This document shows positions 5,014 to 41,979 of a stretch of 60,060 nucleotides of DNA, in pieces. A program made the translations under genes and the position numbers. The notes under the pieces are model-generated. The model worked only from the letters and a program-made list of their open reading frames with translations, ran no database searches and was not told where the DNA came from. The stretch is from Spirochaetaceae bacterium (GTDB lineage Bacteria > Spirochaetota > Spirochaetia > Treponematales > Rectinemataceae). The stretch covers positions 1 to 60,060 of the forward strand of contig JANXYQ010000002.1 in the NCBI GenBank assembly GCA_025355995.1, given 5' to 3'. Position 1 is the first letter of the stretch; each line of letters opens with the position of its first letter.

Positions 5014-5715
5014 ATGAGCGAAGACTCAGGCCCTGCGGCGCCTGACAGGCGTCGGATGGTGTTTCTCCTGCTGTCGCGAGTCGTGCCGGGATTCATCGTC
5101 GTGGCGGCGCTGATCTTCCTGCCGGCAGGCAGCCTCGCCTGGGTGAACGGCTGGGTATACATCGGGGCGCTCTCAGTCCTGATAGCCGGCGCGCTCTCCT
5201 ATTTCCTGGCGCGCGATCCCGCCCTCCTCGAGAGGCGCATGAGGATGAGAGAGCGCAGGAGCACGCAGAAATTTTGCGTCGCCGCATCCTACCCCGTCAT
5301 CGTCGCCGTCTTCGCCCTCCCCGGTCTCGATCACCGCTTCGGTTGGTCGAGAGTCCCGGCCGCGGTCGTCATAGTCGGCTTGGCGGCGGTCCTGGCGGGC
5401 TACGCGCTCTTCTTCGCCGTCATGCGGGCCAATTCCTACGCCTCGCGGGTGATTGAGATACAGGAGGGGCAGCGGGTCATCGATACCGGACCCTATGCGA
5501 TGGTCCGGCATCCCTTGTACGTCTCGAGCCTCGTCATCTACCTCGTTTCGCCCCTCGTCCTCGGCTCGTGGTGGGCCGTGATCCCCGCCCTCGCCTACCT
5601 GCCCCTCCTCGTCGCGCGGATCCGCGACGAGGAAGCGCTGCTTCGCCGGGACCTTCCCGGCTATCTCGACTATTGCGACAGGGTGAAGTGGCGGCTGCTC
5701 CCCGGAGTGTGGTGA
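5014..5715 (+). CDS. Isoprenylcysteine carboxyl methyltransferase/PEMT-like membrane protein
   Basis: The 233-residue integral membrane protein has about five hydrophobic helices and the ICMT/PEMT C-terminal signature: the RHPLYVSS motif (about residues 168-175) followed by a hydrophobic segment and RDEEALLRRDLPGYLDYCDRV. Such proteins bind S-adenosylmethionine from the membrane side and methylate lipids or small hydrophobic substrates. Bacteria lack prenylated proteins, so the substrate is unknown. A good ribosome site (GGAGG) precedes the ATG. It converges on an unrelated membrane protein gene. Confidence 0.85.
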   Translation: MSEDSGPAAPDRRRMVFLLLSRVVPGFIVVAALIFLPAGSLAWVNGWVYIGALSVLIAGALSYFLARDPALLERRMRMRERRSTQKFCVAASYPVIVAVFALPGLDHRFGWSRVPAAVVIVGLAAVLAGYALFFAVMRANSYASRVIEIQEGQRVIDTGPYAMVRHPLYVSSLVIYLVSPLVLGSWWAVIPALAYLPLLVARIRDEEALLRRDLPGYLDYCDRVKWRLLPGVW

Positions 5716-34242: not shown

Positions 34243-35031
34243 ATGAACCTCGCAACAGTCATCGGTATACCGTTAGGGCTCACCCTCCTCATCGCGGCCT
34301 TCATCTACGAGGGCGGCAACCCGGCGGACCTAATCCTGCCCTCGCCGATCGTAATCATATTCGGCGGCACCTTCAGCGCCCTCCTCGTGGCTTTCGACCT
34401 TCCCGACGTCCTCTCCATCCCCAAGCTCATCGGCATGGCGATGCGGATGCCCCCGACCAAGGAAAAGGACCTGGCCCTGCGCTTCGTCGCCCTGGCCGAG
34501 AAATCGCGCCGCGACGGCCTCCTATCCCTCGAGGAGGACATGCAGGGCCTCGACCCCAAGGAAGACCCCCTGCTCAAGAAGGGCCTGCGCTACGTCATCG
34601 ACGGCACCGATTCCGACGCCCTGCGCGAGCTCCTCGAGAACGACGTCGCGATCTTCGAGAAGCACCGCAAGCACCAGGCCGAGATCTTCGAGTCCGCCGG
34701 CGGATTCTCGCCGACGATGGGCATCATCGGGACCGTCCTCGGCCTCATCATAGTATTGAAGAACCTCTCCGAGCCGGATAAGCTCGGAGGGTCGATAGCC
34801 GTAGCCTTCATCGCCACCCTGCTGGGCATCATGATGGCCAACCTCGTCTGGCTGCCCCTGGCCACCAAGCTCAAGGGCGTTCTCGCCAAGGAGAAGAACA
34901 CGAAGGAGATGATCATCGCCGGCGTGCTCGCGATCCAGCAGGGCGAGAGCCCGAAGCTCGTAGGCGACAAGCTGGCCGCCTTCGTATCGGAGAAGGAGAA
35001 GGCGGCGCTCGAGTCCTTCAACGAGGAATAG
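34243..35031 (+). CDS. motA: Flagellar stator protein MotA
   Basis: The 262-residue inner-membrane protein has four helices: two near the N-terminus (about 4-50) and two late (about 150-205), with the large cytoplasmic loop between. The conserved GGFSPTMGIIGTVLGLI and the charged segment (about 70-110, with Arg and Glu that touch FliG) match MotA. With MotB it forms the ion channel that turns the flagellum. It is followed by motB after 3 bases. Confidence 0.95.
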   Translation: MNLATVIGIPLGLTLLIAAFIYEGGNPADLILPSPIVIIFGGTFSALLVAFDLPDVLSIPKLIGMAMRMPPTKEKDLALRFVALAEKSRRDGLLSLEEDMQGLDPKEDPLLKKGLRYVIDGTDSDALRELLENDVAIFEKHRKHQAEIFESAGGFSPTMGIIGTVLGLIIVLKNLSEPDKLGGSIAVAFIATLLGIMMANLVWLPLATKLKGVLAKEKNTKEMIIAGVLAIQQGESPKLVGDKLAAFVSEKEKAALESFNEE

Positions 35032-35034
35032 CCG

Positions 35035-35796
35035 ATGGCGCAGAAAGGTCAGGCCAAGCCCAGGAAGAAGAAAGAGGAGCCGGAGAAGCCGCAGAACGCC
35101 GAGCGCTGGCTCCTCACCTACTCCGACATGATCACCCTGCTCATGGTCCTCTTCGTGATCCTCTACGCCATGTCCAAGGTGGAGACCACCAAGTTCAACG
35201 CCTTGGCCGAGTCCCTCTCCAGCGCCTTCAGCATGCCGGGCGTCCAGGCGCGCGACGGCCAGGGAGGTCATTCGCTCTCGCCAACCGACGCCACCCTGAC
35301 CCCTCCCCCGGGCACGGGCCTCTCCCCCAAGAAGTCCTCCAAGCGCGACAATTTCCTGGAGAAGGCCCGCTCTACCCTGGACACGAGCATACGGACCGGC
35401 AAGATACACATGGCTACGGAGGCGCGGGGCATCGTACTCGCGCTGGCCGGGGACACCTTCTTCAAGGTGGGCTCGGCCAACCTGGAGGAGGGCGCCATCG
35501 GCACGCTCTCGAAGGTGGCGGAGCTCCTGCGGGACCTGCCCAACCCCATAGCGATCGAAGGGCACACGGACGACACCTCGATGGCGAGGGGCGACCCCCT
35601 CGGCTCCAACCTGATGCTCTCCGCCGCGCGCGCCGTATCGGTGACCGAGGCGCTCGAGCTCCTCGACGTGCCCAAGGAGCGCCTCTCGGCCACCGGCTTC
35701 GGCGACGCCAAGCCCGCCCGCCCCAACGACAGCCCCGAAGGCAGGGCCTACAACAGGCGGGTCGAGATACTCATCAGGTTCGACGCCGAGAGCTAG
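35035..35796 (+). CDS. motB: Flagellar stator protein MotB
   Basis: The 253-residue protein has a short basic cytoplasmic start, one membrane helix (about 25-48) with the ion-carrying Asp in TYSDMITLLMVLF, and a periplasmic OmpA-like peptidoglycan-binding domain (about 125-250: IEGHTDDTS, NRRVEILI). This is full MotB length for this group. The plug and linker are proline-rich (about 75-105). Together with motA it is the only flagellar structural pair in the window. Confidence 0.95.
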   Translation: MAQKGQAKPRKKKEEPEKPQNAERWLLTYSDMITLLMVLFVILYAMSKVETTKFNALAESLSSAFSMPGVQARDGQGGHSLSPTDATLTPPPGTGLSPKKSSKRDNFLEKARSTLDTSIRTGKIHMATEARGIVLALAGDTFFKVGSANLEEGAIGTLSKVAELLRDLPNPIAIEGHTDDTSMARGDPLGSNLMLSAARAVSVTEALELLDVPKERLSATGFGDAKPARPNDSPEGRAYNRRVEILIRFDAES

Positions 35797-35815: not shown

Positions 35816-36214
35816 TCAGCCCAGGCAGTCCTCGATGGCTCTCGCGAGCTGCTCGGGGCGCCAAGGCTTGGTAATGCAGACCGAGATCCCGGCATCCGTC
35901 CTCGCCCTCTTGATCGCGTCGTCGTCGGCCTGGCCCGTCATGAGGATCGACTTGATGCCCGGCCTGCGCTCCCGCAGCGCGACCAGGAAGCGATCGCCCC
36001 TGATCCCCGGCATGAACCAGTCGCAGATGACCAGGATCACCTCGACTCCCTCCGACTCCAGCTCCTCGATCACCGCGTCGGCCGCCTCCGCGCCGAGCGC
36101 GGTCTCAATCGCGAAACGGCCGCCGAAGCGCCTTCGGAGCTCCTGCTTCATCGCGAGCAGTATCACGGCCTCGTCGTCGACGCAGACTATCGCCTGCCTG
36201 CCCGCTGACGGCAT
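35816..36214 (-). CDS. Stand-alone response regulator receiver
   Basis: The 132-residue receiver has the acidic pair VCVDDEA near residue 12, a phosphoacceptor Asp in VICDWFMPG about residue 63, SILMTGQ (Thr) and KPW (Lys). No output domain. The DWFMPG context and CVDDE are typical of receivers in complex phosphorelays. It lies 6 bases after a phosphoribosyltransferase gene on the same strand, an uncommon pairing. Confidence 0.88.
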   Translation of the reverse strand: MPSAGRQAIVCVDDEAVILLAMKQELRRRFGGRFAIETALGAEAADAVIEELESEGVEVILVICDWFMPGIRGDRFLVALRERRPGIKSILMTGQADDDAIKRARTDAGISVCITKPWRPEQLARAIEDCLG

Positions 36215-36220
36215 GCCGGC

Positions 36221-36748
36221 TCAGGAGCCCCGCGCCGCTGCCGCGGCGGAGGCCATGTGCGCGTCGATATCCTGCGCGTCCCAGGGGTAGCAGACCCAGC
36301 GGTCCTCGATCTCCCGCCCGGCGAAATAGCGCAGTACCTCGGCAGGGATCGAGCCCTTCTTCTCCTTGAGCTTGTTGTGGAGGACTGCCACGGCGATCTC
36401 CGAGGGCTTGTGCCTCATGAGCTCGCGCACGCAATACTCGAGCGTCGTCCTCGAGTCGTCGACCTCGTCGACCAGGAGGATGCGCCTCCCCGCGAGCTTC
36501 TTCTCGGCCTCCTCGATCCACTGGACCTTGCGCGGGAGGTCGCTCGGCTTGTCCTCCGAGTCGTAGTAGGCGACCCCCACGGCGAGGATCGGCTTGCCCA
36601 GGAAGGTGCGCATGATGCGCGCCGGGATGAATCCCCCCGACCCGATGGCGACGATGACGTCAGGCTCGAAGCCCGACGCCTTGACCCGCGCCGCGATGTC
36701 CAGGGATGTCTTGTGTATGTCCTCGTAAGTGAAGAAGTACTTCTCCAT
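36221..36748 (-). CDS. Purine phosphoribosyltransferase (xanthine/hypoxanthine type)
   Basis: A 175-residue type I phosphoribosyltransferase, which joins a purine base to PRPP. The PRPP-binding signature ILLVDEVDDSRTTL (about residue 95) and a GSGGFIPARIM loop are visible; the length and overall pattern fit the group annotated as xanthine-guanine or hypoxanthine salvage enzymes that end in an aromatic WVCYPWD motif. The exact base cannot be told. It is the first gene of a pair with a receiver. Confidence 0.85.
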   Translation of the reverse strand: MEKYFFTYEDIHKTSLDIAARVKASGFEPDVIVAIGSGGFIPARIMRTFLGKPILAVGVAYYDSEDKPSDLPRKVQWIEEAEKKLAGRRILLVDEVDDSRTTLEYCVRELMRHKPSEIAVAVLHNKLKEKKGSIPAEVLRYFAGREIEDRWVCYPWDAQDIDAHMASAAAAARGS

Positions 36749-36883
36749 GGACGGATACTAATTAGTAGGGCGAGTATTAGCAAGGTGGGGGAGAACGGAA
36801 GGTCATATCCCGCGCACTACGCTGCACTCAAAATCGTGAATCGTTTCGTCCTTAATGCAGGGGGCCGCTCGGCTGCGGAATCG

Positions 36884-37735
36884 CTACCCCCTCTTCTCCG
36901 GTTTCTGGGCGGCGATATCCTTGGGGGTGACCTGGGGATGGTGGCAGCGGCCCGTGAGGGGCGTGTCCGAGCGGAGGTACCATTTGGACTTGATCTGTAT
37001 CGAAAGCGCCGGGCAATAGTTGAAACAGGCCCAGCAGGCGTAGAAGTCCGCTTCTTCCTTCCAATTCGGCCGCCCGTCCAGCATCTCGACCTTGCCGGCG
37101 AGGCAAACCCCCTCGCAGAGGCCGCATCCCGTACATTTCGAATCGGCGTAGAAGTCGAAGCGGCTCTCCACGTACTTGCCGAATTTCAGGAAGAAGGGCA
37201 CGAAAGGCAGCAGGAGCGCAGGCGCGTGGGTCGGGCCGTCGATGCGCTTTGGCCGGACTGCCGTACGGCCGCGGATCGCCTCGCAGGCGAGGTCCAAGTC
37301 CTCCATCGCCTTCGCCTCCAGCCGGGCGTTCTTCTCCTCGCTTATTCTTTCCCGATAAAGCGATGCGATGAGCGGCGCGCTGCCCGAGGGCATGGTGACG
37401 GCGAAGTTGCCGTCCAGGCGCTTGCCCTTTCGGGTAAGCAGCTCGTTCAATGCCGAGAATGTCCAGCAATCCGTGCCGCCCCTCACGGAGACCGCGAATA
37501 TATAGCTGGCCGAGCCGAAATCGAATTTCTCGAGCAGCTTCATGACGATCTTCGGCGCCGTGGACGCATATTGGGGAAACACGAATCCGACAGCCTCGCC
37601 CTTGGTCGCGACCCTATCCTCGGCAAGCGCGCGCAAGATCGGGATCAGCTCTGACTCGGGCAGGCGCCTTTGCAATTCCCTCGCGATATGTAATGAATTC
37701 CCCGTTCCCGAGAAGAAATAAAGCTCCGTTCCCAT
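36884..37735 (-). CDS. EFR1-type flavodoxin-ferredoxin fusion
   Basis: A 283-residue protein with an N-terminal flavodoxin domain (about 1-170: FFSGTGNSLHIA binds FMN phosphate) and a C-terminal ferredoxin part with two cysteine clusters (CTGCGLCEGVC about 205 and CWACFNYCP about 240). This EFR1 architecture is common in anaerobes; electron donor and acceptor are unknown. GGAGG lies 5 bases before the start. It stands as a single gene. Confidence 0.88.
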   Translation of the reverse strand: MGTELYFFSGTGNSLHIARELQRRLPESELIPILRALAEDRVATKGEAVGFVFPQYASTAPKIVMKLLEKFDFGSASYIFAVSVRGGTDCWTFSALNELLTRKGKRLDGNFAVTMPSGSAPLIASLYRERISEEKNARLEAKAMEDLDLACEAIRGRTAVRPKRIDGPTHAPALLLPFVPFFLKFGKYVESRFDFYADSKCTGCGLCEGVCLAGKVEMLDGRPNWKEEADFYACWACFNYCPALSIQIKSKWYLRSDTPLTGRCHHPQVTPKDIAAQKPEKRG

Positions 37736-37754
37736 CGGCTCCTCCGCGCGCGCC

Positions 37755-37773
37755 CGATCGATCGATCGATGAT
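37755..37773. repeat. Short CGAT tandem repeat
   Basis: Four consecutive CGAT units followed by GAT lie in the 84-base gap between the EFR1 and dienelactone hydrolase genes. No other structure is apparent there. Confidence 0.8.
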
Positions 37774-37819
37774 AGCCCGCGACTCGCGAAAAAGGTAGCC
37801 GGAATACAGCGCCGCCCGC

Positions 37820-38638
37820 TCAGCCCGTGAGCGTCCTCGCGAAGAAGGCCAGCAGGCGGGCGTAGGAATCGCGGGCCGCAGCCGGGTTGTAGGATGGCGC
37901 GTCGTCATTGAAGAAGGCGTGGCCGGCGCCCTCATAGACGTGGCTCTCGAAGGACAGGCCCGCCGCTCGCGCGCCTTCCTCGAAGGCAGGGATGCCTGCG
38001 ACCGCCCGTTGGTCCAGGGCGCCGAAAAAACCGATGACGGGGCAGCCGACCTTGGCGAGTCTCTCCGCGGTCGGAGGGTTGCCGTAGAAGACCGCCGCGC
38101 CTGAGAGCTCGCTTTCCTCGCAGGCCAGGAGGGCCGATAGGCCCCCTCCCATGCAAAAGCCCACGCAGCCCAATTTTTGCCCCCTCGTCTCCGGCCTCTC
38201 CTCGCGGAGGTGGCGGAAGGCCAGGCGCAACGGAGGCAGGAGGGATTCCACCCTCCCGGGCGCCGCGAAGGAAAACACTCCCGCGAAGGTCTCGGCGATC
38301 CTGGAGCCCTCGGCCTCGGGAAGCTTGCCCATCGCGGCCGCCCTCGTCGCTGGATCGAACATCGTTCCAGGCGGGAGCATGGCGGAGAAGCCAAAAGCCT
38401 CCGCGATCCTCTCGTTCGACAGGAAGTCCGGCCGCCGGCCATTCTCGGCGAAGAGGTCTGGAGCGAGAGCCGCATAGCCGGCCGCGGCGATGCGGCGAGT
38501 CAGGTCCGCGATGTGGTCGTTGACGCCCCCGGCTTCCTGGATGACCAGGACTCCAGGCAGGCTCCCGCGCGATCTCCCGGGCCGAGCGAAGTAGCCCGAA
38601 CCCGAGCCGTAGCGAATCCACTCGCCTTCAATCGACAT
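37820..38638 (-). CDS. Dienelactone hydrolase family protein
   Basis: The 272-residue alpha/beta hydrolase has the nucleophile motif GFCMGG (Cys nucleophile, about residue 163), the acid in GALDQR and the catalytic His in GAGHAFFND. The start VLVIQEAGGVNDHI is the oxyanion region. Members hydrolyse dienelactone in aromatic degradation, but many act on other esters. GGGAGG is 6 bases before the start. No aromatic catabolism neighbours are seen. Confidence 0.9.
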   Translation of the reverse strand: MSIEGEWIRYGSGSGYFARPGRSRGSLPGVLVIQEAGGVNDHIADLTRRIAAAGYAALAPDLFAENGRRPDFLSNERIAEAFGFSAMLPPGTMFDPATRAAAMGKLPEAEGSRIAETFAGVFSFAAPGRVESLLPPLRLAFRHLREERPETRGQKLGCVGFCMGGGLSALLACEESELSGAAVFYGNPPTAERLAKVGCPVIGFFGALDQRAVAGIPAFEEGARAAGLSFESHVYEGAGHAFFNDDAPSYNPAAARDSYARLLAFFARTLTG

Positions 38639-38651
38639 GCATCGCCTCCCG

Positions 38652-39065
38652 TCAATCCTTGACCACTGCCATCAGGGCCTCGCAGACGACATTTCGGCTT
38701 TGCTCGATGATGAGATCGCGAACGTCGCCTTTTTCGAGCCGCGCCACTGTGGGCAGGACATAGGCCTTAACGCGGTCGGAGAGATTCCTGAATATGGCAT
38801 CCTTGACCTTTTCTTCCGCGCCGACGAGGGCGGTGATCAGGTCGCGGCCCGTGATCTTCCTCAAGATCCCTTGGATCGAGGCATCGTCGAGCCTCGAGAT
38901 CGCCGAGAATTCGGGAACGAATCCCGCGTCGACGCTCCGACGCAGGGTTATTTTGCCGTCCGCCACCTCCAACTCGATCTCGTCGGCGAACTGAACCTGC
39001 TTGAGGATAGCCTGAGGTATTCGAATGCCCTTGGAGTTTCCGATATCGACGATAGGTACGCGCAT
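38652..39065 (-). CDS. AbrB/MazE DNA-binding domain fused to a FliG C-terminal domain
   Basis: The 137-residue protein joins two recognisable domains. Residues about 1-45 are an AbrB/MazE swapped-hairpin DNA-binding domain (VPIVDIGNSKGIRIPQAIL). Residues about 53-130 match the C-terminal domain of the flagellar rotor protein FliG: FSAISRLDDASIQGILRKI, then RDLITALVGAEEKVKDAIF, RNLSDR and a final helix. The match covers the LDDxSIQ segment that in flagellar FliG holds charged residues touching MotA, as well as the RNxSxR that follows. No toxin gene is adjacent, so it is not a simple antitoxin. AGGAGA precedes the start. Function unknown; a repressor whose partner binding uses a FliG fold is the inference. 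Confidence 0.75.
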   Translation of the reverse strand: MRVPIVDIGNSKGIRIPQAILKQVQFADEIELEVADGKITLRRSVDAGFVPEFSAISRLDDASIQGILRKITGRDLITALVGAEEKVKDAIFRNLSDRVKAYVLPTVARLEKGDVRDLIIEQSRNVVCEALMAVVKD

Positions 39066-39154
39066 AGATTCTCCTGATATCAGTATTTACAATATAACTA
39101 CTATGTAGCTACTTTCTTGTCAATAAAATATTTGCATTTTCCCGCGTTTCTTGA

Positions 39155-39185
39155 TTGACCCTGACGTTACGTCATACTCTATCTT
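39155..39185 (+). promoter_or_regulatory. MerR-type promoter and operator of the TipA-like gene
   Basis: TTGACC (39155-39160) and TATCTT (39180-39185) are separated by 19 bases, the stretched spacing used by MerR regulators. Inside the spacer is a perfect inverted repeat, TGACGT-T-ACGTCA (39162-39174). The start codon follows 22 bases after the -10. This strongly suggests the gene activates itself. Confidence 0.75.
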
Positions 39186-39207
39186 CATCCTATTCGAGGG
39201 AGCGACA

Positions 39208-39960
39208 ATGGCCTATACGATCAAGAAGCTCGCGCAGATGGCGCAGGTGAGCGTCCGGACGCTGCACCATTACGACGCCGTCGGACTCGTGGTGCCCGGT
39301 TCCCGAAGCGCTTCGGGCTACCGGCTCTACGGGGAGGCGGAGCTCCTGCGGCTGCAGCAGGTGCTCTTCTACCGAGAGCTAGACCTGAGCCTGGAAGAGA
39401 TCTGCCGCCTCCTCGACGAGCCGGGCTATGACCCCGTGACTGCCCTCGAGACGCAGCTGCGCCTCCTGGCGGCTCGCGCCGACCGCATAGCGCGGCTCAT
39501 GGATACCGTCGGCCGCACGATCGGCCGGCTCAAAGGAGAGAATATGCTCAGCGACGAGGAATTGTACGAGGGTTTCGCGAAGGACGAGATCCAGAAAATC
39601 AAGGGCGAGGCTAAGGCCAGGTGGGGTTCCACGGAGGCCTACGCCCAGAGTCAGAAGAGGGTGGCGAAGATGTCGAAGGCGGATCTGGAGAGGGTCAAGG
39701 CCGAAGGAGCGGCCGTGGACGCCGCGGCGGCCCGGGCCCTGGCCCGCGGCGAGGACCCCGCCTCTGCCGCCGTGCGCGCCATCATGGCTCGGAAGTTCGA
39801 GCAGCTGCGCGCCTTTTACGAGCCGGACAAGGAGTTGTTCGCGGGGCTCGGGCGCATGTACTCCGAGGACGAGCGCTTCAGGAAGCATTACGAGGATATC
39901 GCCCCCGGCCTCGCGGATTTCCTGCGGCTGGCCATGTCCGCGTACGCGGAAGGGATCTAG
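39208..39960 (+). CDS. MerR-family regulator with TipAS-like ligand domain
   Basis: A 250-residue transcription factor. Residues 1-70 are the MerR winged helix (YTIKKLAQMAQVSVRTLHHYDAVGLV), then a dimer helix (about 75-115), and a C-terminal TipAS-like domain (about 120-245) that in TipA captures antibiotic-type ligands in a globin-like fold (KDEIQKIKGEAKARWG and FYEPDKELFAGLGRMY). The ATG at 39208 has GAGGGAG 5 bases upstream and fits the family. A self-activating promoter precedes it and a strong terminator follows, so it is monocistronic; its target is presumably itself and unseen genes. Confidence 0.92.
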   Translation: MAYTIKKLAQMAQVSVRTLHHYDAVGLVVPGSRSASGYRLYGEAELLRLQQVLFYRELDLSLEEICRLLDEPGYDPVTALETQLRLLAARADRIARLMDTVGRTIGRLKGENMLSDEELYEGFAKDEIQKIKGEAKARWGSTEAYAQSQKRVAKMSKADLERVKAEGAAVDAAAARALARGEDPASAAVRAIMARKFEQLRAFYEPDKELFAGLGRMYSEDERFRKHYEDIAPGLADFLRLAMSAYAEGI

Positions 39961-39963
39961 CCC

Positions 39964-39998
39964 GCCGCCCGCCGACCCATCGCGGTCGGCGGGCGGCC
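39964..39998 (+). terminator. Terminator after the MerR gene
   Basis: A perfect 14-bp stem (GCCGCCCGCCGACC / GGTCGGCGGGCGGC) with a 6-base loop begins 3 bases after the stop. Only a short T-stretch (CTTTA) follows. Confidence 0.8.
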
Positions 39999-40034
39999 TT
40001 TACTTGGGGCGCTTCATCATTTAGAGTGAGCCGC

Positions 40035-40073
40035 ATGAAAAAAGCACTCCCGAGGCGGGGCGGAAGGGAATGA
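40035..40073 (+). CDS. Possible 12-codon leader ORF
   Basis: ATG at 40035 opens a frame of 12 codons (MKKALPRRGGRE) whose TGA overlaps the ATG of the next gene as ATGA. The purine-rich end of the frame is also the ribosome site of the next gene. It may couple translation or may be chance. Confidence 0.3.
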   Translation: MKKALPRRGGRE

Positions 40074-40993
40074 AGGTCAAGGGCGCCCTCTCGCAGATGC
40101 TCAAGAAAAGCCTCAACGAGTCCCTTACTCCCGACATGATGGAGCGCGTCGCCCAGGACGTGATACCCGACTACGACCTCCGCAGGCGATCGGGCTTCCC
40201 CGCCAACATCCCAATGCAGGGGCTTACCGCCGCCTCGCGGATCGTGGATGACGTGGTTGCCGAGGATTACATCCTCCATTTCATCGAGCGCCTCGTCCTC
40301 CTGGACAAGGAGGGCTTCATGGGGCGGTCATACCGAATTGCGGGCCTCCGGGAGATATTCAAATTCATCGCCGCCGAGGCCTACATCTGGGACGCGGACA
40401 CCGGCCGATTCATGGAGGATCCCCGCATCAGGCGCACCCAGAACTGGGGCCGCCTCCTCCAGGGCGAGGAGCTCCGCTTCTCCCTCCTCCGCGTCGACGT
40501 GGTCACCAACTCGCGCATCGTGAAGGTCCACGGGGAGACCGCCGCCCGAGGAGCCTACGACGACCTGCGGAGCATCCTCTCGCGCTGCGCCGAGAGGCGC
40601 TCGGGGCGCATCTGGAGCTGGGAGGGGGACGGCGCCCTCGCCGCCTTCCTCTTCGGCCACTCCACCACCTCCTCGGTGCTGGCCGGCATGGCCCTCCTCC
40701 ACGAACTTTTCATCTATAACCTGGCCTATAACCGCATAGGCGAGCCGCTGCGCGTGCGGGCGGCCGTGCATACCGGGCCCATACGCTACCTCCCGGACGT
40801 CGGCGAGATCCTCACCCAGGAGACCTGCCGCGAGGTCATCGAGTCCGAATCCCGATGGACGCCGCCCGACGGTCTCTCCATAAGCCCCGCGGTCGCCGGC
40901 ACGCTGGATCGCGTCATCCTCGACCGCTTCAGGCCGGGCCCTGAGGCGGGTTCGCGAGCCCTGGTATACTCCGTGGGGGCGAGCCTCGCATGA
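40070..40993 (+). CDS. Cyclase-homology protein A (C1-like, degenerate class III cyclase)
   Basis: A 307-residue soluble protein. The first half (about 1-130) is helical and unrecognised; the second half (about 135-300) resembles a class III nucleotidyl cyclase catalytic domain. It keeps both metal-binding positions (D143 in LLRVDVVTNS, D187 in WSWEGDGALAAF) and the strand VRAAVHTGP, but the later segment with the transition-state Asn and Arg is not recognisable. This is the residue pattern of the C1 half of two-domain adenylyl cyclases. The next gene, overlapping by ATGA, encodes the complementary pattern. Alone it should be inactive. No membrane helix or signal peptide. Confidence 0.6.
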   Translation: MKVKGALSQMLKKSLNESLTPDMMERVAQDVIPDYDLRRRSGFPANIPMQGLTAASRIVDDVVAEDYILHFIERLVLLDKEGFMGRSYRIAGLREIFKFIAAEAYIWDADTGRFMEDPRIRRTQNWGRLLQGEELRFSLLRVDVVTNSRIVKVHGETAARGAYDDLRSILSRCAERRSGRIWSWEGDGALAAFLFGHSTTSSVLAGMALLHELFIYNLAYNRIGEPLRVRAAVHTGPIRYLPDVGEILTQETCREVIESESRWTPPDGLSISPAVAGTLDRVILDRFRPGPEAGSRALVYSVGASLA

Positions 40994-41979
40994 ATATCAT
41001 CATCTGCGCCTCCGACCCCGCGGACAAGAAGCTCGCGGCCTTCGCGGCGCGCACTTTCGCCGAGCGGACCTTCGCCAAGGGCGAGCGGCCCGAGATCATG
41101 GCTGACTCCGCCTTCTCCCGCGCCATCAAGAAGAAGGCGCCGGGGGCCTTCGTCTACTTCGACCTGGGCTTGGGGACAGATCGCGTCCTCGAGCTCGCCT
41201 CGAGGCTGGACGAGATAGGCCCCAGCGCTTGGGGGGTGCTCGACCGCGAGGGACAATCCGAGGATCCCGCGCTCTTCTTCTTCGCCGGCGCGAGCGACTA
41301 CGTTGGCCCGGCGCTGTTCAAGACGGGCCTCGGCCAGGGGAGGCTAGGCGACGCCCTGGCGTACTCGGGGCTCGAGGAAGCCGCCCCGGACGGCCCCGAG
41401 GCCGCGGGCGCCGGCGGTTCCTTCCCCGGATGGGCGGTCCTCGAGGAGGGAGCCGAGGTCCCCGTGCGCTTCTGCTACGCGGCGGTCGGCAACCAGAAGA
41501 GCCTGCTCGAGCGGATCGGGGAAAAGCGCCTCGACAAGCTCCGCGACGATTTCGCGTCCTTCCTCGAACCCTGGGCCAAGGAATGCGGCGGCCTCGTCTG
41601 GATCAAGGAGAGCTCAGGCTGCCTCCTCCTATTCCCTCCCGAGGACGAGGGCATGAATCCCGTCCTCGCCTCCTTCCGCCTCCTCCTCGACCGCGCCATC
41701 ATCGGCTACGAGGTATTCAAGCTCGAGGTGCCGCTCACGTTCAGGTTCGCGTTCCACTCGGGGCATACACAGTGGAGGAAGCCCGGGGCCACCGGCAAAG
41801 TCATCTCCGAGGACGTGAACTTCGTCTTCCACCTCGGGATGAAGGCCGCCGGCGACGGGTATATCCTCGCCTCCGCCGACGCCCGTGACGCCATCCCCGA
41901 ATCCCTCCGCGAGCTCTTCTCCGAAGCGGGCGACTACGAGGGGCGCTCGCTCGTCGCGTCGCGGAAATTCAAGGACTAA
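40990..41979 (+). CDS. Cyclase-homology protein B (C2-like, degenerate class III cyclase)
   Basis: A 329-residue soluble protein. Residues about 1-125 look like an alternating alpha/beta domain that may be a degenerate receiver (MNIIICASDP start, FVYFDLG, then FFFAGASDY), without the phosphoacceptor context. Residues about 158-320 resemble a class III cyclase domain in which both metal Asp positions are lost (FCYAAVGNQ; WIKESSGCLLLF) while the segment VISEDVNFVFHL (271-282) keeps the transition-state Asn (N277), with His instead of Arg (H281). This is the C2-like complement of the preceding gene, to which it is translationally coupled. Function as a heterodimer is inference. Confidence 0.6.
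   Translation: MNIIICASDPADKKLAAFAARTFAERTFAKGERPEIMADSAFSRAIKKKAPGAFVYFDLGLGTDRVLELASRLDEIGPSAWGVLDREGQSEDPALFFFAGASDYVGPALFKTGLGQGRLGDALAYSGLEEAAPDGPEAAGAGGSFPGWAVLEEGAEVPVRFCYAAVGNQKSLLERIGEKRLDKLRDDFASFLEPWAKECGGLVWIKESSGCLLLFPPEDEGMNPVLASFRLLLDRAIIGYEVFKLEVPLTFRFAFHSGHTQWRKPGATGKVISEDVNFVFHLGMKAAGDGYILASADARDAIPESLRELFSEAGDYEGRSLVASRKFKD

Follow-up and report, generated by a model that had tools for sequence, protein, structure and literature searches.

The window analyzed here, a 60,060-nt stretch of DNA from a Spirochaetaceae bacterium, encodes a 137-aa protein that combines an N-terminal DNA-binding domain of the AbrB/MazE type with the C-terminal domain of FliG (FliG_C). On balance, this fusion protein is best explained as an autoregulated local transcription repressor that was derived from a MazE antitoxin and carries a FliG module in place of the MazF-binding tail. 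The earlier note on this DNA, made from the sequence alone, knew of no described family with this domain order, and a survey of open-access full text on FliG with AbrB or MazE likewise found the fusion architecture nowhere described. AbrB-family regulators are not known to carry a FliG_C domain, and none that does turned up in literature searches. The fusion is a so far undescribed variant among the MazE/AbrB regulators.

Domain architecture and distribution of the fusion protein

The fusion gene (137 codons plus stop) occupies positions 38652..39065 and is encoded on the minus strand, which the earlier note had not specified. It is defined by its ORF frame, Pfam matches, full-length relatives, and a low dN/dS ratio. 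The profile searches that had been proposed for the two halves recovered both of the domains recognized in the earlier note. In the hmmscan comparison with Pfam, FliG_C (PF01706) matched residues 53-126 (38688..38909, minus strand) with an E value of 1.7e-12 and a score of 48 bits, well above the cut-off (23.3), in line with the FliG likeness noted for residues ~53-130. The predicted AbrB/MazE-type swapped-hairpin DNA-binding domain of residues 1-45 (38931..39065, minus strand; motif GNSKGIRIP) was matched by MazE_antitoxin at residues 8-43, with an E value of 3.6e-4 for the whole protein and 3.9e-5 for the N-terminal part alone, the latter at 24.0 bits, slightly below the cut-off of 24.7. The MazE_antitoxin score is below the Pfam cut-off in three of the four intact copies, whereas the copy from another spirochaete class (G225) exceeds both cut-offs, with 28.5 bits for MazE_antitoxin and 53.4 bits for FliG_C.

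The top PDB sequence matches of the fusion protein are FliG C-terminal structures (8e-9). The predicted fold of the whole protein had a pLDDT of only 49, and the FliG half alone was therefore used for fold comparison. Residues 46-137 were modeled with a pLDDT of 75 from an alignment that included a single orthologue and two viral-contig FliG sequences, the latter biasing the model towards FliG; the model obtained without these two sequences was poor (pLDDT 49), yet its best fold matches were again FliG. For the model of residues 46-137, FliG filled the first 14 rows of the fold comparison, and residues 51-113 superposed on FliG (1lkv) with a Z score of 8.7 and an rmsd of 1.6 A over 62 aligned residues. 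The suggested overlay on FliG C1-6 accordingly held for helices C1-C5 and failed for the last helix (residues 115-136), which departs from FliG. The fusion protein is FliG-like both by its Pfam match and by its fold. A moderate fold match (8gps, Z score 7.1) was also seen to the N-domain of MgtE, another FliG-like armadillo fold outside the motor, but that domain is the sensor of an ion channel, shares 11% sequence identity with the fusion protein, and has no DNA-binding part.

The search of other spirochaete genomes for the same domain order, also suggested in the earlier note, yielded three further intact copies and a decayed one. It covered sampled spirochaete genomes (a phylum sample of 393 and an order sample of 394, which overlap and comprise ~600 genomes in all) and close relatives in other collections. 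Scanning of genome contigs revealed a Spirochaetaceae MAG (L051) with a full-length copy that is 76% identical, and profile searches retrieved intact copies from another family of the same order (G564, 65% identity) and from G225 (35% identity). The fusion is present in 2 of the 393 genomes of the phylum sample, and the order sample contains two intact copies and the decayed one. This last copy (L107, G624:C135, about 5430-5660) has lost its N terminus and suffered an internal deletion; it is placed after an AHSA1-family gene and still in front of a metallo-beta-lactamase-fold gene. No relative of the fusion was detected in the viral collection and no fusion in plasmids and phages, where the plasmid matches were either AbrB-only or FliG-only.

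Between the window copy and L051, dN/dS is ~0.07 (0.06 in the AbrB half and 0.07 in the FliG half), an estimate for which synonymous sites are near saturation, and both halves appear to be under purifying selection. Given the further intact copies and the low dN/dS in both halves, the fusion is not an artefact or a chance product. The G+C content of the gene is 57.5%, compared with 64.8% for the window; this difference and the patchy spread fit horizontal transfer, without proving it. In a tree of 104 FliG_C columns, the fusion FliG_C groups with FliG_C-MotA proteins at weak support (76/75), a result that would be compatible with either one or several origins of the fusion.

Proposed operator and operon structure

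In all four intact copies, the start codon is preceded, at a distance of 47-50 bp, by three 8-bp boxes resembling GTANNTAC at an 11-bp period. This shared layout defines the proposed operator of the window copy (39083..39112, minus strand), with the boxes GTAGCTAC (39105-39112), GTAGTTAT (39094-39101), and GTAAATAC (39083-39090), all on the minus strand. The corresponding boxes, at 48-50 bp from the start, are GTGATTAC/GTATTTAT/GTAATCAC in L051, GTAATTAC/GTTATTAT/GTATATAC in G225, and GTAGTCAC/GTATGCTT/GTAGATCC in G564. Out of a maximal score of 18, the window, L051, G225, and G564 operators reach 17, 15, 16, and 13, respectively, the last being degenerate; a period of 11 gives a sum of 61, and the other periods from 8 to 15 give 36-44. 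Among 10000 dinucleotide shuffles, these scores were reached 0, 0, 0, and 11 times, respectively; the counts for the window, L051, and G225 are not independent because the box model was derived from these three promoters, whereas the G564 promoter was found after the model had been set. True mazEF promoters from the same family contain two such boxes with the same 11-bp period. The fusion promoter is predicted to contain a mazEF-type autoregulatory operator, which differs from its relatives in having three boxes instead of two, and its conservation supports the predicted DNA binding by the fusion protein. MazE of E. coli binds a mazEF operator that is made up of three alternating palindromic fragments, and it does so more strongly in the presence of MazF (PMC4803016).

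The exact two-box pattern occurs at a single site of the 4.5-Mb host genome, which is the fusion promoter. The G225 genome has two exact sites, its own promoter and one inside a dnaE-like coding frame, which was taken as a chance match. A second, mismatch-tolerant match in the host genome (C95:60205) was set aside, since its boxes, located before a LacI-family regulator and arabinose genes, are presumably of the AraR type, judging from the AraR motif. At locus L064 (G000:C95, 6206-6257), TGTACGTACA-like boxes that resemble AraR sites are repeated in front of arabinose genes and a gene for a LacI-family regulator. A candidate -35 element, TTGACA (39118..39123, minus strand), can be read in the window, with 5 bp between it and the first box, and TTGACA also directly precedes the boxes in L051 and G225 (L082). 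A consensus promoter scan gave no full sigma-70 match at the fusion promoter, and Rfam gave no match within 36000-41000.

The fusion is the first gene of a two-gene unit. Its downstream partner in the window (37820..38638, minus strand, gap of 13 bp) encodes a dienelactone-hydrolase-family protein (Pfam DLH, 2.1e-43). Every copy is followed by a gene at a short or zero gap. In L051, it again encodes a dienelactone hydrolase (the gaps in the window and L051 are 12-13 bp). G225 has a DUF4180 protein in this place, and both the G564 copy and the G624 remnant are accompanied by a metallo-beta-lactamase-fold hydrolase. No MazF or motility gene was found as the second gene at the window, L051, G225, G564, or G624 loci, and other homologues of the dienelactone hydrolase in the family have no adjacent fusion gene. 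Outside the unit, the window contains a divergent MerR/TipAS-type regulator (39208..39960, plus strand; Pfam TipAS 2.5e-33, MerR_1 6.8e-15) with a textbook MerR-type promoter at 39155..39185 of the plus strand, consisting of TTGACC, a 19-bp spacer with the dyad TGACGTTACGTCA, and TATCTT. This promoter is separate from the three-box operator. The inverted repeat was rejected as a MerR operator because a separate TTGACC-N19-TATCTT dyad belongs to the MerR gene and because the repeat recurs without an adjacent MerR gene; no MerR/TipAS gene adjoins the L051 fusion.

Proposed derivation from MazE, proposed mechanism, and alternatives

Within the same family, the AbrB domains closest to that of the fusion come from true MazE antitoxins of 82-85 aa with an EWEW-type end, whose genes overlap or adjoin PemK/MazF-family genes. 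The AbrB half of the fusion is up to 58% identical to these mazF-adjacent antitoxins. It shares with MazE (AbrB/SpoVT-type, PF04014) an N-terminal swapped hairpin with the GNSxGIRIP motif, GTANNTAC-like boxes spaced by 11 bp in its own promoter, and the first position in a two-gene operon. In MazE, the N-terminal AbrB domain binds the operator and the tail binds MazF, and the MazEF complex represses more strongly (PMC4803016). In contrast to MazE, the fusion protein lacks the MazF-binding tail and an accompanying mazF gene, and has instead a folded FliG_C that starts almost without a linker, at residue ~50. Having no toxin and no tail, it does not fall under the definition of a MazE antitoxin. 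The AbrB-type DNA-binding domain used in transcription control, with no toxin partner, is a trait that it shares with the transition-state and local regulators of the AbrB family.

The conserved operator suggests that the fusion protein represses its operon through its own promoter. AbrB/MazE dimers would occupy the three 8-bp boxes and thereby shut off the two-gene operon, that is, in the window, the fusion gene and the gene for the dienelactone-hydrolase-type enzyme. The C1-C5 part of the FliG C-terminal domain would have taken the place of the MazF-binding tail and could be expected to provide a folded surface for protein-protein contact. This module would most likely let adjacent dimers on the three-box operator hold each other, as MazF does in mazEF; alternatively, it might receive a partner protein, whose binding would lift the repression. 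In this scheme, we infer repression, self-contact of the FliG module, and an inducing signal. FliG C1-6 is not known to self-associate alone, so the idea of bridging between neighboring dimers derives from the analogy with MazF and is the weakest point of the mechanism.

The earlier note had proposed that this protein could tie transcription to the motor, and such a coupling, with MotA, FliM, or the C ring holding the FliG_C domain and the state of the motor or stator determining the amount of repressor available for DNA binding, is an unlikely alternative to the derived repressor. As a homologue of the stator-contact domain of FliG, this domain has a similar fold, also in comparison with MotAB-bound FliG (8ucs), but several of its contact residues are lost. 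In E. coli FliG, stator contact depends primarily on R281, D288, and D289 and secondarily on K264 and R297, and the contact of MotA R90 with FliG D289 is critical for stator assembly (PMC6079164). The fusion protein has neither the N-terminal (FliF-binding) nor the middle (FliM-binding) domain of FliG, and it also lacks ARM_C and the MFXF start of FliG_C. With the E. coli numbering transferred by alignment, the equivalents of K264, D288, and D289 are replaced in the window copy by V81, P105, and T106, and none of the four intact copies retains them (Ala for K264 and Gln/Arg for D288/D289 in G225; Val and Pro/Thr in the others). R281 is retained in three copies and lost in one, and the R297 position, which follows a two-residue insertion, is occupied by Arg or Lys. 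With the rotor domains absent, the contact residues lost, the last helix diverged, and a DNA-binding domain attached, the protein does not qualify as a FliG, despite the significant match and C1-C5 fold that it shares with FliG C1-6. All carrier genomes examined encode FliM and a FliG-type gene, which is consistent with a motor link; the idea that the carriers lack flagella, which would oppose such a link, was rejected on these grounds, so the absence of a motor provides no argument here. (In the host assembly G000, the same fliG piece is present in the first 141 bases of contigs C11 and C12, and the genuine fliG is accordingly broken at contig ends.) The motA-motB pair (34243..35796, plus strand), previously placed ~3 kb away, indeed lies 2.9 kb from the fusion gene, but as a mere neighbor on the opposite strand, three genes past the operon partner, and motAB is absent from the G564 and G225 loci. 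The operon partners are unconnected to motility, and the exact two-box operator is found nowhere else in the host genome. A motor link is not supported by these data, and it is likewise improbable that the fusion is a transcription factor sensing motor or stator proteins through its FliG-derived domain, by which the state of the motor would directly control a spirochaete gene. The other option raised in the earlier note, a putative re-use of the FliG fold, here as a protein-interaction part, fits the data better.

A more plausible, although still doubtful, alternative is an adaptor-type repressor whose FliG_C domain binds a soluble inducer or co-repressor, such as an orphan FliG_C/MotA-like protein or the enzyme of its own operon. 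FliG_C occurs in many spirochaete proteins that do not look flagellar, some of them with a MotA cytoplasmic segment, two weak FliG_C matches are also seen in one protein of the host genome (C128), and the weakly supported tree places the fusion FliG_C with FliG_C-MotA proteins. The downstream enzyme, however, is not constant between loci, which argues against a single conserved enzyme partner. The same inconstancy weighs on the view, the least probable of all, that the fusion is still an antitoxin whose FliG_C domain neutralizes an unrecognized toxin encoded by the downstream gene. The MazE-type domain, the mazEF-like operator, and the first place in a two-gene operon agree with such a role, but the dienelactone hydrolase, the DUF4180 protein, and the metallo-beta-lactamase-fold hydrolase represent three unrelated families with no known toxin among them. 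As the earlier note had observed for the window, no toxin gene is adjacent: PemK/MazF genes adjoin none of the copies, including the four intact ones.

Other FliG_C proteins of spirochaetes and implications

Several other proteins with FliG_C were encountered in spirochaetes. L053 (G057:C60) and L055 (G045:C320), from the same family, are soluble proteins of 210-229 aa with an N-terminal FliG_C followed by a MotA-cytoplasmic-like segment (BLASTP of L053 against the window MotA, 1e-8). In the 621-aa spirochaete protein L108 (G551:C82, 2420-4348), FliG_C is accompanied by leucine-rich repeats and by two segments resembling the MotA cytoplasmic region (6e-10 and 6e-7 against the window MotA). Small proteins of ~175-300 aa (L045, L046, L047, L049, L050, L083, L084, L110, and L111) have FliG_C behind unrelated N termini; in these L045-type proteins, unlike the AbrB fusion, the stator-contact acids are mostly kept. 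The host and two relatives encode related proteins of 374-400 aa with two weak FliG_C matches (L042, G000:C128, 446-2056; L054; L057), for which a suspected MotA-like N terminus was not supported by BLASTP.

Although FliG is usually regarded as dedicated to the flagellar rotor, the C-terminal domain of FliG is found here on a DNA-binding domain of the antitoxin type, in a gene that appears to be under purifying selection and has a conserved mazEF-like operator, so that gene control seems to have reused a component of the motor. The fusion draws attention to a larger group of orphan spirochaete FliG_C proteins and would offer a small, testable example of a motor domain at work outside the motor. 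If the proposed derivation is true, a toxin-antitoxin regulator would have become an ordinary repressor through replacement of the tail that binds the toxin by a folded module borrowed from elsewhere.
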